Below are positions 50,151 to 54,136 of a stretch of 64,000 bases of DNA, in pieces. The DNA is from Sphingobium yanoikuyae (lineage in GTDB: Bacteria; Pseudomonadota; Alphaproteobacteria; Sphingomonadales; Sphingomonadaceae). Location of the stretch: assembly GCF_013001025.1 (NCBI RefSeq), contig NZ_CP053021.1, positions 3,500,001 to 3,564,000 of the forward strand, read 5' to 3'. A program made the position numbers and the translations under genes. Numbering within the stretch: the first letter of the stretch is position 1; each line of letters opens with the position of its first letter. The notes under the pieces were generated by a model. The model worked only from the letters and a program-made list of their open reading frames with translations. It was not told the DNA's origin and did no database searches.

Positions 50151-50220
50151 TCAGAACTTGCCCGACCGGCGCAAAGGCCGGTCAGAATTTGCCCGATCGG
50201 CCGCAGGCCGATCAGAACTT
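50151..50220 (-). repeat. Tandem 30/31-bp repeat at the receptor's stop codon
   Basis: On the minus strand the receptor ends AAGTTCTGA; the same tail recurs 30 bases later (AAATTCTGA) and 31 bases after that (AAGTTCTGA). Between them lie hairpins GATCGGCC-TGC-GGCCGATC and ACCGGC-N6-GCCGGT followed by TCGGGCAA. The unit starts on the plus strand are 50151, 50182 and 50212. The copies lie beyond the true stop. Confidence 0.75.
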
Positions 50221-53001
50221 ATAGGTCAGGCCCAGATAATAATCGCGGCCGTAGCGCTGATAGTCGATGACCTGGCGCTTATCGCCATTCTGATAGGTGA
50301 CGAAGGGCTGGTCGGTGAGGTTCTTGCCCTGGAGCAGGATCGACAGGCCGGTGAGCGGCCCCGACTGGAATTCATAGCCGATCTGCGCGTCGAGAATGCC
50401 CTCTGCCTTGGCGGTGCGGAAGGTCGGCGCGGCCGAGAGGCCGGCGACTTCGCCCAGGAAGGAGGAGCGATAGCGATAGGAGACGCGCGCCTGGAAACCG
50501 CTCTTTTCATAATAAGCGGTGCCGCTGGCGACCCATTTGGACAGGCCCGGCAGGGTGACGACATCGGTCGGGTTGCTGCCATATTTGACTTCGCTGTGGG
50601 TGTAGGAACCGCTGGCGAAGATGCCGAAGCCATCAAGCGTTTCGCTGAACACCTTGAACGGCAGCGAGACGGTGCCTTCCGCACCCATGATCGTGCCCTT
50701 GCCGGTGTTGGCCGGGGCCTTCAGCAGGCCGATATAGCTGCCGTCGGCGATGATCTGGTTGCGGATGTCGGCAGGCAGCGAGGCCAGCACGTCCGAGAAA
50801 TCATAGGCGATATTGTTGTTGGGATCGACGAAGTCGGTCAGATTCTTGAAATAGCCCGCGAGCGAGACATAGCCGCCGCCCGGAAAATATTTCTCGATCG
50901 ACAGGTCGATATTGGTCGACTGATAGGGACGCAGCGCGATGTTGCCGCCGTTCGAGCTGAACGGGCTGTACTGCGGGTCGGAGCCGAGGCCGACATTGGC
51001 CAGGTTGAAATTATATTCCTGGTTGATCCGTTCCTGGTCCATGCGCGGACGCACCATGGTCTGAGCCGCGCCCATCTTCACAAAGAAGCCGGGTTCCAGC
51101 TCGACCGAGAACTGCGCGCTGGGCAGGAAATTGGTGAAACTTTCCCTGCCCGAGGCCGGGACGACGGTGACGACGCCGTTGGAGAAGTTGGAGATGGTGC
51201 CGGTCGACGCCTGGCGGGTGTGGATCACCTGCACGCCGATCGCGCCCTTGAGCGGCTTGCCGCCCAGATCGCCGTCCAGCGTCATCTTGGCATAGCCGGT
51301 GAAGACATCTTCCTTCACGACATTGTCGCGCACCAGCGACGAGGGGCGATTGTCGAACACGGCGTCGAGCGTGTTGTTGTAGAGATAGAGCGGATCGAGC
51401 GTCAGCATCGCCGGCACGCCCAGATAGTCGAGCGAGACATTCTTGCCGAGCAGTGCCTCCTGCGGCACCGGGGCCGAGCCGGGCGTGCCGTTGGCGATGG
51501 TGCAATCCGTGCCGCCGGTGGGGCAGAGGAAATAGCTGGTATAGGCGCTGGTCTTCTTGCGCCGGCTGTAATTGCCGCCGACTTCCCAATTGCTGAAGAT
51601 GCTGCCCGAAATGTCGCCGACCAGGTTGGCGCGGAACGACTTCATGTCGTCGATGAACTTGGGCCGGTTGAGGAAGCCCGCCTGCACGACGGCGGTGGTG
51701 CCGTTATAGCCCCAGCCATTGGGGTCGGTCAGGCTGATGACGTTGGTGTCGGTATAGTCGAGCGTCGGCACGATGCTGAACAGGCCGTTCGACTGGCGCT
51801 CGACGCGCACCGTGTCGGACACGCCCGACCGCAGATAGCCGGTGCCCGAATAGGTTTCGAGCAGGAAGTCGGTGCGCTTGGCGCGCGACCAGCTGGCATC
51901 GACATTGAGCTTGAGTCGATCGTTCAGGCGGATGTCGTTGTTCCAGCCGAGCGAAATGGTGTCGGCCTTGCGCTTGTTATAGTCGTTGCGCTGGACGCCA
52001 TAGACGTTGGAGAAGGTGGCGCCGGTGACGAAGCCATTTTCGACGGTCACGTCGCTGACGCCGACGTCCGTGCCCCAGACGAGCGGGAATTCGATGCCGC
52101 GCAGGCGCTGTTCTTCCTCGAAATGCGAGGCGAGCACGTCGAAGGTCGAGTGGAAATTGTCGCTCGGCTGCCATTCCAGCGTGCCGACCATGCCATAGCG
52201 CTTGAGCAGGTTCGACTGCACATAGGGCTTGGCGCCGCCGATGATCAGATTGCCGTCGGCATCGGTGGGATAACCCCAGGCGTTGAAACGCTCATTCTGC
52301 GACGGGGTCTGCGAGGCGGCGAAGCCCAGCGACAGGCCCAGCGTGTCGTCGGCAAACTGATCGACATAGGTGGCCGAGGCGCGATAGCCATAGCGTTCGC
52401 CATCGGGATTGAGCTTGTCCATGCCATTCATCTGGCCGCGCAGCGACACGGCGAGGATGCGGTCATTCTTGTCGAGCGGACGCAGCATGCGCAGGTCGAC
52501 CGTACCGGAGATGCCGGCGGCGATCAGCGCGGCGTCGGCGCTCTTGTAGACATTGACGTTCTGGAAGAATTCCGAGGGATACTGATCATATTCGACGCCG
52601 CGATTGTCGCCGACGGTGACCTGTTCGCGGCCATTGAGCAGGGTGGTCGAGAAGTCCGGGCCAAGGCCGCGGATCGACAGGCGCTGGTCGCGGCCTTCGA
52701 GGCGCTGGGCGGTGACGCCGGGCAGGCGGGCGAGCGAGTCCGCGATCGACACGTCGGGCAGCTTGCCGACATCTTCGGCCGAGATGGAATCGACGATCAG
52801 CACGGAATCGCGCTTCACCTTGGCGGCGGAGGCGAGCGAGGCGCGGATGCCGGTGACGACGATGCCTTCGGATTCGCCGGCGGCGGGTGCGGCGGGCGTC
52901 GCGGTTTCGGCGTCGGTCTGCGCATGGGCGACCGCGGCGAACGAGAAGGAAGCCCCTGCCAGCAGCGCAGCGCGCAGGACGGTATGACGGAATTGATGCA
53001 T
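50212..53001 (-). CDS. TonB-dependent receptor of the maltodextrin locus
   Basis: 929 residues. Signal peptide RAALLAGASFSFAAVAHAQ; plug start EGIVVTGIRASLASAAKVK, VDSISAEDVGKLPDVSIA, DSLARLPGVTAQRLEG and IRGLGPDFSTTLLNGRE. This is the saccharide-type receptor group. The barrel ends DYYLGLTYKF with terminal Phe. GGGAGG lies about ten bases before ATG 53001. The upstream gap carries the same 14-mer as the amylase/lacI gap, so LacI likely controls it. Import of maltodextrins is the expected role. Its 3' end is followed by tandem repeats and a strong terminator. Confidence 0.94.
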   Translation of the reverse strand: MHQFRHTVLRAALLAGASFSFAAVAHAQTDAETATPAAPAAGESEGIVVTGIRASLASAAKVKRDSVLIVDSISAEDVGKLPDVSIADSLARLPGVTAQRLEGRDQRLSIRGLGPDFSTTLLNGREQVTVGDNRGVEYDQYPSEFFQNVNVYKSADAALIAAGISGTVDLRMLRPLDKNDRILAVSLRGQMNGMDKLNPDGERYGYRASATYVDQFADDTLGLSLGFAASQTPSQNERFNAWGYPTDADGNLIIGGAKPYVQSNLLKRYGMVGTLEWQPSDNFHSTFDVLASHFEEEQRLRGIEFPLVWGTDVGVSDVTVENGFVTGATFSNVYGVQRNDYNKRKADTISLGWNNDIRLNDRLKLNVDASWSRAKRTDFLLETYSGTGYLRSGVSDTVRVERQSNGLFSIVPTLDYTDTNVISLTDPNGWGYNGTTAVVQAGFLNRPKFIDDMKSFRANLVGDISGSIFSNWEVGGNYSRRKKTSAYTSYFLCPTGGTDCTIANGTPGSAPVPQEALLGKNVSLDYLGVPAMLTLDPLYLYNNTLDAVFDNRPSSLVRDNVVKEDVFTGYAKMTLDGDLGGKPLKGAIGVQVIHTRQASTGTISNFSNGVVTVVPASGRESFTNFLPSAQFSVELEPGFFVKMGAAQTMVRPRMDQERINQEYNFNLANVGLGSDPQYSPFSSNGGNIALRPYQSTNIDLSIEKYFPGGGYVSLAGYFKNLTDFVDPNNNIAYDFSDVLASLPADIRNQIIADGSYIGLLKAPANTGKGTIMGAEGTVSLPFKVFSETLDGFGIFASGSYTHSEVKYGSNPTDVVTLPGLSKWVASGTAYYEKSGFQARVSYRYRSSFLGEVAGLSAAPTFRTAKAEGILDAQIGYEFQSGPLTGLSILLQGKNLTDQPFVTYQNGDKRQVIDYQRYGRDYYLGLTYKF

Positions 53002-53099
53002 GACAGTGATCCTCCCCAGGACGCATCTTGAGCGTTTCTTGCCGACATGTGTCGGTCTGGTTCAAATAGCGCCGCCCCCGACCCTCTGCACAGATTCCA

Positions 53100-53113
53100 G
53101 CATACGTATTCAG
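53100..53113. promoter_or_regulatory. LacI-type operator candidate, copy 2 (TonB receptor promoter)
   Basis: GCATACGTATTCAG, identical to 48485-48498, about 100 bases before the receptor start. It links the receptor to the lacI/amylase unit across the DUF559 insertion. Confidence 0.7.
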
Positions 53114-53228
53114 CCATATTCACGACATGCCCGGTTACCGTAGCGGAAATGGCCGAAATAGCGGGTTCAGCCGTGCGATAGGGCCGATGGCATGGGCGCG
53201 GCCGCCGACAAAAATATGCGGCCGATGC

Positions 53229-53256
53229 TTGAAAGGGACGCGCACTTTCCTAGATT
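53229..53256 (+). promoter_or_regulatory. Sigma70-like promoter for a candidate small RNA
   Basis: TTGAAA at 53229-53234 and TAGATT at 53251-53256 with a 16-base spacer, placing the start of transcription at about 53262-53264, exactly where the first hairpin of the candidate RNA begins. Confidence 0.55.
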
Positions 53257-53262
53257 GGTCCT

Positions 53263-53341
53263 GTCACTCTTCCCCCCTTTGGAGTGACACCTCCCTGAAC
53301 CTGGCCCCGTCGTCGAGCTTGCTCCGGCGGGGTTTTCTTTT
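53263..53341 (+). ncRNA. Candidate two-hairpin small RNA with anti-ribosome-site sequences
   Basis: The predicted transcript begins with a stem (TGTCACTC/GAGTGACA, 53262-53289) whose 12-base loop is TTCCCCCCTTTG. A single-stranded CCTCCCTGAACCTGG follows. An intrinsic terminator ends it: CCCCG/CGGGG at 53305-53332 with an inner GAGC-TT-GCTC helix, then TTTTCTTTT. A promoter precedes it. The layout of two stem-loops with C-rich unpaired stretches resembles alphaproteobacterial anti-Shine-Dalgarno small RNAs such as the CcsR 'cuckoo' or suhB/MmgR types; whether it is one of these cannot be told. It lies in the 367-bp gap 53002-53368, divergent from the TonB receptor and converging on the LytTR gene. 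Confidence 0.65.
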
Positions 53342-53368
53342 GCCCGCCAGAGCGGGGCAGGATGCGGG

Positions 53369-54136
53369 TCAGGACGCGGGCAGGAAGCCGGCGCGTTGCA
53401 GCCGGGCGACCGAATCGCGCGCGACGGGGACGCTGAGCCCGCCATCCAGGGTGATGAGCCAGCTGCGCCCGGCGGGATCACAGCGCAGGATGGCGCGATG
53501 GGCGATCCACCAGCTGCGATGCACCTGCGCGCCGGCCACCCCCTCCATCTCCGCAATCGCGTCGCGCAGCCGCATCAGCAGCAATTCGCTGCCGCCCGCG
53601 CCATGGACGCGGACATAATGATCCTCGCTCTGCAGCGCCAGGATCGGCCCGGCAAAGCCGGCCGATAGGCGATGGCGCAGGGCGGGTTCGGTGGGGGATG
53701 TTGTGGCGGCGTATTCGGGAAGTGGGGCATCGGCGGGCGACGGCGCAGCGTGGCGCCGAGCCAGCCGCCGGTCGGTCTGTTCGGCCCAGTGGGTGACGAC
53801 CAGCACGGTGAGCGCGCAGAGGAAGGAAAAGGGCAGCAGGCCGGTAAAGCCGTCTAGGTCGCGAAAGGCGGTGCGGCCGACATTGCGCCAGAGGAAGGCC
53901 AGCGGCACGACGCAGAGCGACACGCCGGAAAAGACGGTGATCGACACCGAAAGGTCGATCCGCCGCGCCAAGCCGCGCAGCAGCCAGATCGCCGGCCGGA
54001 CAAGGATATAGGCCCCCATCAGCAGCAGCCACCAATGGCCGATCCGCCCCGGCAGCCCGTCGCGCATATAGGTGCCGAACGGCCCCATGAAGCCGATGAT
54101 GCCGGCCAGCAGCAGCATCGCCCACAGCTCCAGCAA
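53369..54136 (-). CDS. Membrane-bound LytTR-domain regulator
   Basis: About 255 residues. Four hydrophobic segments fill the first ~125 residues (AMLLLAGIIGFMGPFG, WWLLLMGAYILVRPAIWLL, ITVFSGVSLCVVPLAFLW, LLPFSFLCALTVLVVTHW). A charged linker and a LytTR DNA-binding domain follow (ILALQSEDHYVRVHGAGG, LLLMRLRDAIAEMEG, VHRSWWIAHRAILRC). Membrane LytTR proteins regulate transcription from the inner membrane. The start is unclear: TTG 54136 has no close ribosome site, whereas GAGAGGGGA lies eight bases before an in-frame ATT at 54154. No ATG lies upstream of the first membrane helix before a stop codon. Confidence 0.85.
   Translation of the reverse strand: MLELWAMLLLAGIIGFMGPFGTYMRDGLPGRIGHWWLLLMGAYILVRPAIWLLRGLARRIDLSVSITVFSGVSLCVVPLAFLWRNVGRTAFRDLDGFTGLLPFSFLCALTVLVVTHWAEQTDRRLARRHAAPSPADAPLPEYAATTSPTEPALRHRLSAGFAGPILALQSEDHYVRVHGAGGSELLLMRLRDAIAEMEGVAGAQVHRSWWIAHRAILRCDPAGRSWLITLDGGLSVPVARDSVARLQRAGFLPAS

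Follow-up and report, generated by a model that had tools for sequence, protein, structure and literature searches.

The closest described systems are sRNAs of alphaproteobacteria, above all the alphaR8 RNAs. In Caulobacter, the alphaR8 member SisA acts as a repressor of a wide range of mRNAs, those of receptor genes among them, probably via an anti-Shine-Dalgarno (anti-SD) 10-mer common to SisA-D, all of which are sponged by CrfA; SisA-D have no promoter motif in common, the linker 10-mer of alphaR8 is UUUCCUCCCU, and in most species with a single copy alphaR8 adjoins a gene for N-formylglutamate amidohydrolase (FGase) (PMC12559287). In Sphingopyxis granuli, SuhB together with Hfq represses thnR (PMC6563040), and two other Caulobacter sRNAs, RusT (PMC11005374, which also gives receptor names) and ChvR (PMC6237742), repress receptors. 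RusT is iron-responsive, and ChvR, which has a single target, pairs via two separate stem-loops.

The CcsR or cuckoo RNAs of Rhodobacter, which are under stress or RpoH control, have C-rich anti-SD loops with a CCUCCUCCC motif and a gene context of their own. In enterobacteria, the synthesis of outer-membrane proteins is shut off by the sRNAs MicA and RybB, which are made under the stress sigma factor sigma-E.

We analysed a locus in a 64 000-nucleotide stretch of the Sphingobium yanoikuyae genome (hereafter the window) that very probably is a small regulatory RNA gene (Table 1). The window RNA fits the scheme of SisA, SuhB, RusT and ChvR, with two differences: a C-run loop that matches the SDs of receptor genes better than control SDs, and an RpoH1-like promoter. 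As in alphaR8 RNAs (S. meliloti MmgR, S. granuli SuhB), a hairpin, an exposed CCUCCCU and a Rho-independent terminator follow each other in the same order; unlike them, the window RNA has a longer and stronger hairpin with a C-run in its loop, an RpoH1-like promoter, other neighbours, and ACACCUCCCU in place of UUUCCUCCCU. It has in common with SisA-D of Caulobacter crescentus that these are paralogous anti-SD sRNAs with a CCUCCCU core, of which SisA represses receptor mRNAs among others, whereas SisA-D have unrelated promoters; in the window family, an RpoH-like promoter recurs and another exposed stretch, the C-rich loop, accompanies the core. The likeness to ChvR and RusT, which repress TonB-dependent receptors as is proposed here, is one of described action. 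The comparison with the CcsR/cuckoo RNAs also goes by their general description only, their loop having CCUCCUCCC where that of the window RNA has UUCCCCCCUUU, and MicA and RybB are alike solely in the way they work, with another sigma factor, another RNA, and porins instead of TonB-dependent receptors.

On balance we lean slightly towards the view that the locus specifies a trans-acting, RpoH-driven anti-SD sRNA of ~79 nt, of alphaR8 (suhB/mmgR/SisA) stock, which would repress the translation of receptor mRNAs.

Locus and predicted fold

The initial annotation had proposed a -35/-10 pair with 16-base spacing, leading into a stem-loop with a C-rich loop, a single-stranded stretch and an intrinsic terminator. 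The promoter boxes are indeed in place (TTGAAA at 53229-53234 and TAGATT at 53251-53256), and in a scan of 52900-53500 they constitute the only promoter-like site, for 0.1 expected; the three RNA elements were located as listed in Table 1, the single-stranded stretch being predicted as exposed. Transcription is predicted, from the position of the -10 box, to start near 53262-53264 and to give an RNA of ~79 nt. The in silico fold of an 84-nt sequence has an energy of -31.4 kcal/mol (z = -3.59), and none of 200 shuffles was equally stable. The probability of being unpaired is near 1 for the C-run of the loop and, in the CCUCCCUGAAC linker, at least 0.93 over CCUCCCU and 0.42-0.47 over GAA. It had been suggested that both unpaired stretches could pair with ribosome-binding sites, which agrees with their predicted exposure and with the match of the loop to the G-run SDs of receptor genes described below.

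Table 1. Features of the sRNA locus and of its neighbours (positions in the window)
Feature	Position	Strand	Basis or remark
sRNA gene with promoter	53228-53341	+	Direct sequence reading
Promoter: CTTGAA (53228-53233), 15-base spacer, CCTAGAT (53249-53255)	53228-53255	+	RpoH1-type, 12 of 13 consensus positions
sRNA as covered by covariance model R1	53259-53341	+	Window copy among the R1 inputs; R2, built without it, matches too
Hairpin 1, arms UGUCACUC/GAGUGACA	53262-53289	+	Fold and compensatory changes
C-rich loop of hairpin 1, UUCCCCCCUUUG	53270-53281	+	Sequence complementarity with receptor-gene G-run SDs
Exposed linker CCTCCCTGAACC, with the near-invariant family core CCUCCCUGAACC; second anti-SD stretch	53290-53301	+	
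Intrinsic terminator: stem 53303-53312/53325-53334, then TTTTCTTTT	53303-53341	+	Sequence, fold, covariation
TonB-dependent receptor gene, divergent neighbour	50212-53001	-	TIGR01782, 548 bits; SD GGGGAGG, possible target
LytTR-domain gene, convergent neighbour	53369-54136	-	

Conservation of the RNA

At the DNA level, relatives were found in 25 of the 61 genomes searched, every one of the same genus and often with several copies; an exact match to a 28-base core was seen in a single named species, Sphingobium scionense, in a scan that may omit records near the S. yanoikuyae genome itself. A covariance model, R1, was built from 14 copies including that of the window, first alignments with poorly aligned rows having been dropped in favour of this set. 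In the S. yanoikuyae genome it finds five copies at E ≤ 10−3, the next match being at E = 1.66. Across the Sphingomonadaceae, 199 of 249 genomes and 83 of 96 genera have matches at E ≤ 0.01, mostly a single one per genome outside the genus; since R1 also recognizes 14 sister-family alphaR8 loci (E ≤ 0.0021), this counts RNAs that have this core rather than the members of a single subfamily in the strict sense. All 27 loci inspected outside the genus have the core TCCCTGAAC or differ from it by a single change.

The initial annotation had made its proposal depend on conservation of the stems in relatives and had suggested an alignment to look for compensatory changes. Such changes are present in both stems: in 32 R1 matches (31 distinct), 98.3% of the cells are paired and 9 of 17 pairs have double-sided changes, counts that are flattered by the fitting of this alignment to the structure, and none of 500 shuffles reached any of five covariation measures. 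For hairpin 1, compensatory changes affect 6 of the 7 modelled pairs.

Other genera typically have two hairpins ahead of the same CCUCCCUGAACCUUGGCC core, a form longer than the single-hairpin copies. In an unfitted alignment of 18 two-hairpin sequences, 19 of 29 predicted pairs have double changes; most of 28 folded sequences have a C-run in hairpin A, with UUU or UCAU often coming next, and the run is shorter in some, such as L114, L116 and L123. On sequence grounds, the sRNA is widespread in the Sphingomonadaceae and the window copy is one of its Sphingobium paralogues, of the single-hairpin form. The S. yanoikuyae genome also has a two-hairpin copy (at 2203459, beside a SapC gene) with both motifs retained; easy access to its linker is less likely, because the latter is predicted to be partly paired. 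In three close genomes that share the window locus, the sRNA is 98.8-100% identical and the intergenic and coding flanks 93-99%, while the promoter stretch, at 90%, is below the flanks with both boxes retained.

A tRNA gene (L094 1684-1755) and a cobalamin riboswitch (95 bits, L094 2341-2582) lie downstream of the two-hairpin copy of S. yanoikuyae, and tRNAs are found near several other sRNA copies too. In another genus, one genome (G071) has a tandem pair of sRNAs ~400 bases apart (L100 1501-1581 and 1904-1983).

Relation to the alphaR8 family

The covariance-model scan against known families that the initial annotation had called for gave no Rfam match in the window at the gathering score; the nearest family to the window copy is the alphaproteobacterial RF00519 (suhB/mmgR, i.e. 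alphaR8), with 24.2 bits for a cut-off of 41. Among 20 family-wide relatives, 12 match RF00519 at all, with 25.0-37.1 bits, all under this cut-off. Weak matches to 23S-methyl and anti-hemB in the window, and to ar14 at the family-wide loci, were discarded as far under their own cut-offs.

A second model, R2, was built from the two-hairpin form without the window copy and without any alphaR8 locus over the cut-off. It matches the window copy (46 bits, E = 2×10−9) as its sole match in the 64 kb, and all 14 sister-family loci above the RF00519 cut-off (E ≤ 2.5×10−4), which argues for common descent with the canonical alphaR8 members; none of 22 same-genus RF00519 loci is matched at E ≤ 1. The six RF00519 loci inspected in the S. 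yanoikuyae genome (L061-L066, four of them over the cut-off) are of another type, GCCUUUCAGGC-AUCCUCUCC. By eye, the over-cut-off copies L061-L064 seem to share a degenerate palindrome-like TTCGCAnTTGCGAA ~20-35 bases upstream, perhaps an operator.

The window copy has the alphaR8 order of elements, and its linker agrees with the published 10-mer at 7 of 10 positions, CCUCCCU being retained. There is no linkage to an FGase gene at the window locus, where the neighbours are the TonB-dependent receptor and LytTR-domain genes. Because it stays under the RF00519 cut-off and lacks both the exact 10-mer and the FGase linkage, we do not regard the window RNA as a filed alphaR8 member; because R2 finds it along with the 14 sister-family alphaR8 loci, we read it as a diverged alphaR8 branch. 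The resemblance to alphaproteobacterial anti-SD RNAs that had been noticed from the layout alone is borne out by comparative data.

Promoter of the sRNA

The RpoH1 consensus is CTTGAA-N15-16-CCTATAT (Barnett et al. 2012, quoted by PMC4843759), and the Sphingomonadales have rpoH1 only, according to the latter source. A very similar pattern, CTTGAA-N15-16-CCTATnT, recurs upstream of the family members within a narrow range of distances. Our own consensus was derived from the sRNA members, and the published one was used for the final count: at least 11 of its 13 positions are matched at 34 of 60 members, which include close relatives and are therefore not independent, as against 1 of 2142 control stretches. 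This level is reached by 15 of the 31 single-hairpin members (16 are below) and by 19 of the 29 others, which are two-hairpin by locus, with L108 possibly a single-hairpin one. None of the six RF00519-type copies inspected in the S. yanoikuyae genome (L061-L066) reaches 10 of 13 on the RpoH1 consensus.

At the HSP20 loci of the genus, CTTGAA-N16-CCATAT is found in 12 of 30 cases; at the groES loci, CTTGAC occurs in 10 of 16 and CTTGAA in 3 of 16, as CTTGAA-N16-CCTAG. When the sRNA-derived consensus is applied, at least 10 of 13 positions are matched at 25 of 46 heat-shock loci and 17 of 322 control stretches, and at least 11 of 13 at 5 of 46 and 5 of 322, respectively. By these counts the heat-shock loci resemble the sRNA promoters yet fit less well. 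The usual sixth -35 base among the sRNA members is A, which is also found in 16 of the 30 HSP20 loci. The exact pattern CTTGAA-N15-17-CYATNT has eight sites in the 5.9-Mb genome (control, one). Among them are sites ahead of an HSP20 gene, of the two-hairpin sRNA and, with gene names assigned by eye, of genes for HtpG, a peptide deformylase and a VapBC-like pair; three of the eight are inside ORFs. The promoter of the window RNA looks like one of the heat-shock type, with RpoH as the presumed sigma factor.

Two observations were made by eye. CTTGAA-N15-CCATAT stands directly before a small VapB-like/VapC-like pair (L182 1501-1830, C1:4842291), which may be heat-shock controlled, and TTCAT or GTCAT, possibly a regulator site, recurs in the promoter spacer of the single-hairpin paralogues L006, L011, L012, L018, L021 and L026.

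The pattern CTTGAA-N17-CTATNT differs little from the sigma-70 consensus of alphaproteobacteria, and most groES loci have CTTGAC (10 of 16), so that the same boxes could be read as a housekeeping promoter. The locus would then specify an alphaR8 sRNA of the SuhB/SisA type that tunes catabolic and receptor genes to growth rate and carbon state and has no role in stress. The homology to alphaR8 is in keeping with this, as is the growth-rate control of S. granuli SuhB (PMC6563040), and the pairing of the RNA would be the same as in the reading that we favour. We nevertheless hold this reading to be the less likely one: across genera, members match the published RpoH1 consensus far more often than the background does; A at the sixth -35 position is shared with the HSP20 loci; the RF00519-type copies L061-L066 all stay under 10 of 13; and SisA-D have no common promoter motif (PMC12559287).

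Shine-Dalgarno sites of receptor genes

The S. yanoikuyae genome has 106 plug-domain (PF07715) receptor genes (L184-L213, L244-L319). They were compared with 70 SDR genes (70 of 89 dehydrogenase-gene matches, the omitted 19 being mostly partial or weak), and this comparison replaced a first one of 30 against 30. Start codons were picked by SD strength, using what we take to be the sequence of the 16S tail. Among the 22 nt that precede the start, 67 of 106 receptor genes and 10 of 70 SDR genes then have GGGG (Fisher P = 7×10−11); other choices of start shrink this contrast, the significance being kept, with 49 of 106 against 8 of 70 for the most upstream start (P = 10−6) and 35 of 106 against 8 of 70 for the nearest (P = 0.001). 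The receptor G-runs are mainly at -9 to -15, i.e. at the SD position. The corresponding count in dinucleotide shuffles averages 17, with a maximum of 26 over 200 rounds, and no such run is present at 46 HSP20/GroES loci from the genus, which have 39 distinct upstreams.

Other SD types behave differently. GGGAGG is in 16 of 106 receptor genes against 3 of 70 SDR genes (P = 0.026), GGAG shows no significant difference (36 of 106 against 33 of 70, P = 0.085), and AAGGA-type SDs have the opposite trend (1 of 106 against 15 of 70). A GAGAGG class, which fits the other RF00519 type of the genome, was dropped, being devoid of receptor enrichment (9 of 106 against 8 of 70). At least six Watson-Crick pairs with the loop or the linker can form at 62 of 106 receptor genes and 13 of 70 SDR genes, and the median duplex energies are, respectively, -13.05 and -9.25 kcal/mol for the loop and -11.9 and -9.3 kcal/mol for the seed. 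Composition accounts for part of these energies: the receptor median of the true seed was undercut by 2 of 20 scrambled seeds, and the margin of the loop over its scrambles was narrow. In six other genera the G-run trend is weaker, with 14 of 30 receptor against 5 of 29 SDR genes (P = 0.025) among the best-scoring matches, 30 out of 263 for receptors and 29 out of 255 for SDR genes, one SDR locus without usable start being excluded; one of these six genomes (G116) has no R1 match.

Receptor mRNAs had been proposed as targets in the initial annotation on account of the closeness to one receptor promoter. This is a weak reason, and a better one is that receptor genes across the genome often carry G-run SDs that match the loop. 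The neighbouring gene had been called a maltodextrin receptor gene; its product is a TonB-dependent receptor (TIGR01782), while maltodextrin as substrate found no support. With a seed duplex of -16.6 kcal/mol, its SD ranks 20th of 106, making it a plausible, not an outstanding, target. That energy, the divergent arrangement of sRNA and receptor genes, retained in the three close genomes, and the precedent of Caulobacter ChvR, which has one receptor mRNA as its only target (PMC6237742), might suggest that the sRNA mainly pairs with this GGGGAGG SD and tunes that single gene. We find this improbable, because the seed forms a better duplex with 19 other receptor genes and the loop with 41, and because the two-hairpin copy lies elsewhere, beside the SapC gene, yet has both motifs.

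Proposed mode of action

The mechanism that seems most likely to us is one in which the sRNA, itself controlled by RpoH, represses the translation of receptor mRNAs. RNA polymerase with RpoH would transcribe the sRNA under heat or protein-folding stress; the sRNA, with Hfq or alone, would use its loop or its linker to pair with SDs in the mRNAs of TonB-dependent receptors, and such pairing would block ribosome entry and lower the synthesis of outer-membrane receptors. GGGG-type SDs would let it distinguish receptors from ordinary mRNAs. More tentatively, we propose that in sphingomonads this amounts to an SD code for the control of their very large receptor set, in which the GGGG-type SDs of most receptor mRNAs might be read by an RpoH1-driven, alphaR8-derived sRNA with a C-run loop, the whole class being shut under protein-folding stress.

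If this is true, the enterobacterial sigma-E sRNAs would have an alphaproteobacterial counterpart. A link would be made between the alphaR8 stock and the heat-shock sigma factor, and a structured sRNA branch that is in most sampled Sphingomonadaceae genomes and uncalled by Rfam would be described; G-run SD against C-run loop would be a direct rule for class-wide regulation in bacteria with ~100 outer-membrane receptors. What raises the interest beyond another family member is the promoter of the heat-shock type, together with the SD pattern of the receptors. In the literature searched, which was available in part and had the 2016 alphaR8 evolution and 2018 SuhB papers outside its scope, neither this RNA nor the G-run SDs of receptor genes turned out to be described, and the main-text passages of a Zymomonas sRNA paper (PMC6970203) contain no CCUCCC/CCTCCC string.

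That the locus is a functionless remnant, either a decaying duplicate or a mere terminator between convergent genes, as the 28 bases between the sRNA end and the end of the LytTR gene and the shortness of the single-hairpin copies might suggest, is very improbable, given that the promoter is in place, that identity in the three relatives is 98.8-100% over the sRNA and 90-99% over its promoter and flanks, and that a bare terminator would not need the compensatory changes found in hairpin 1.
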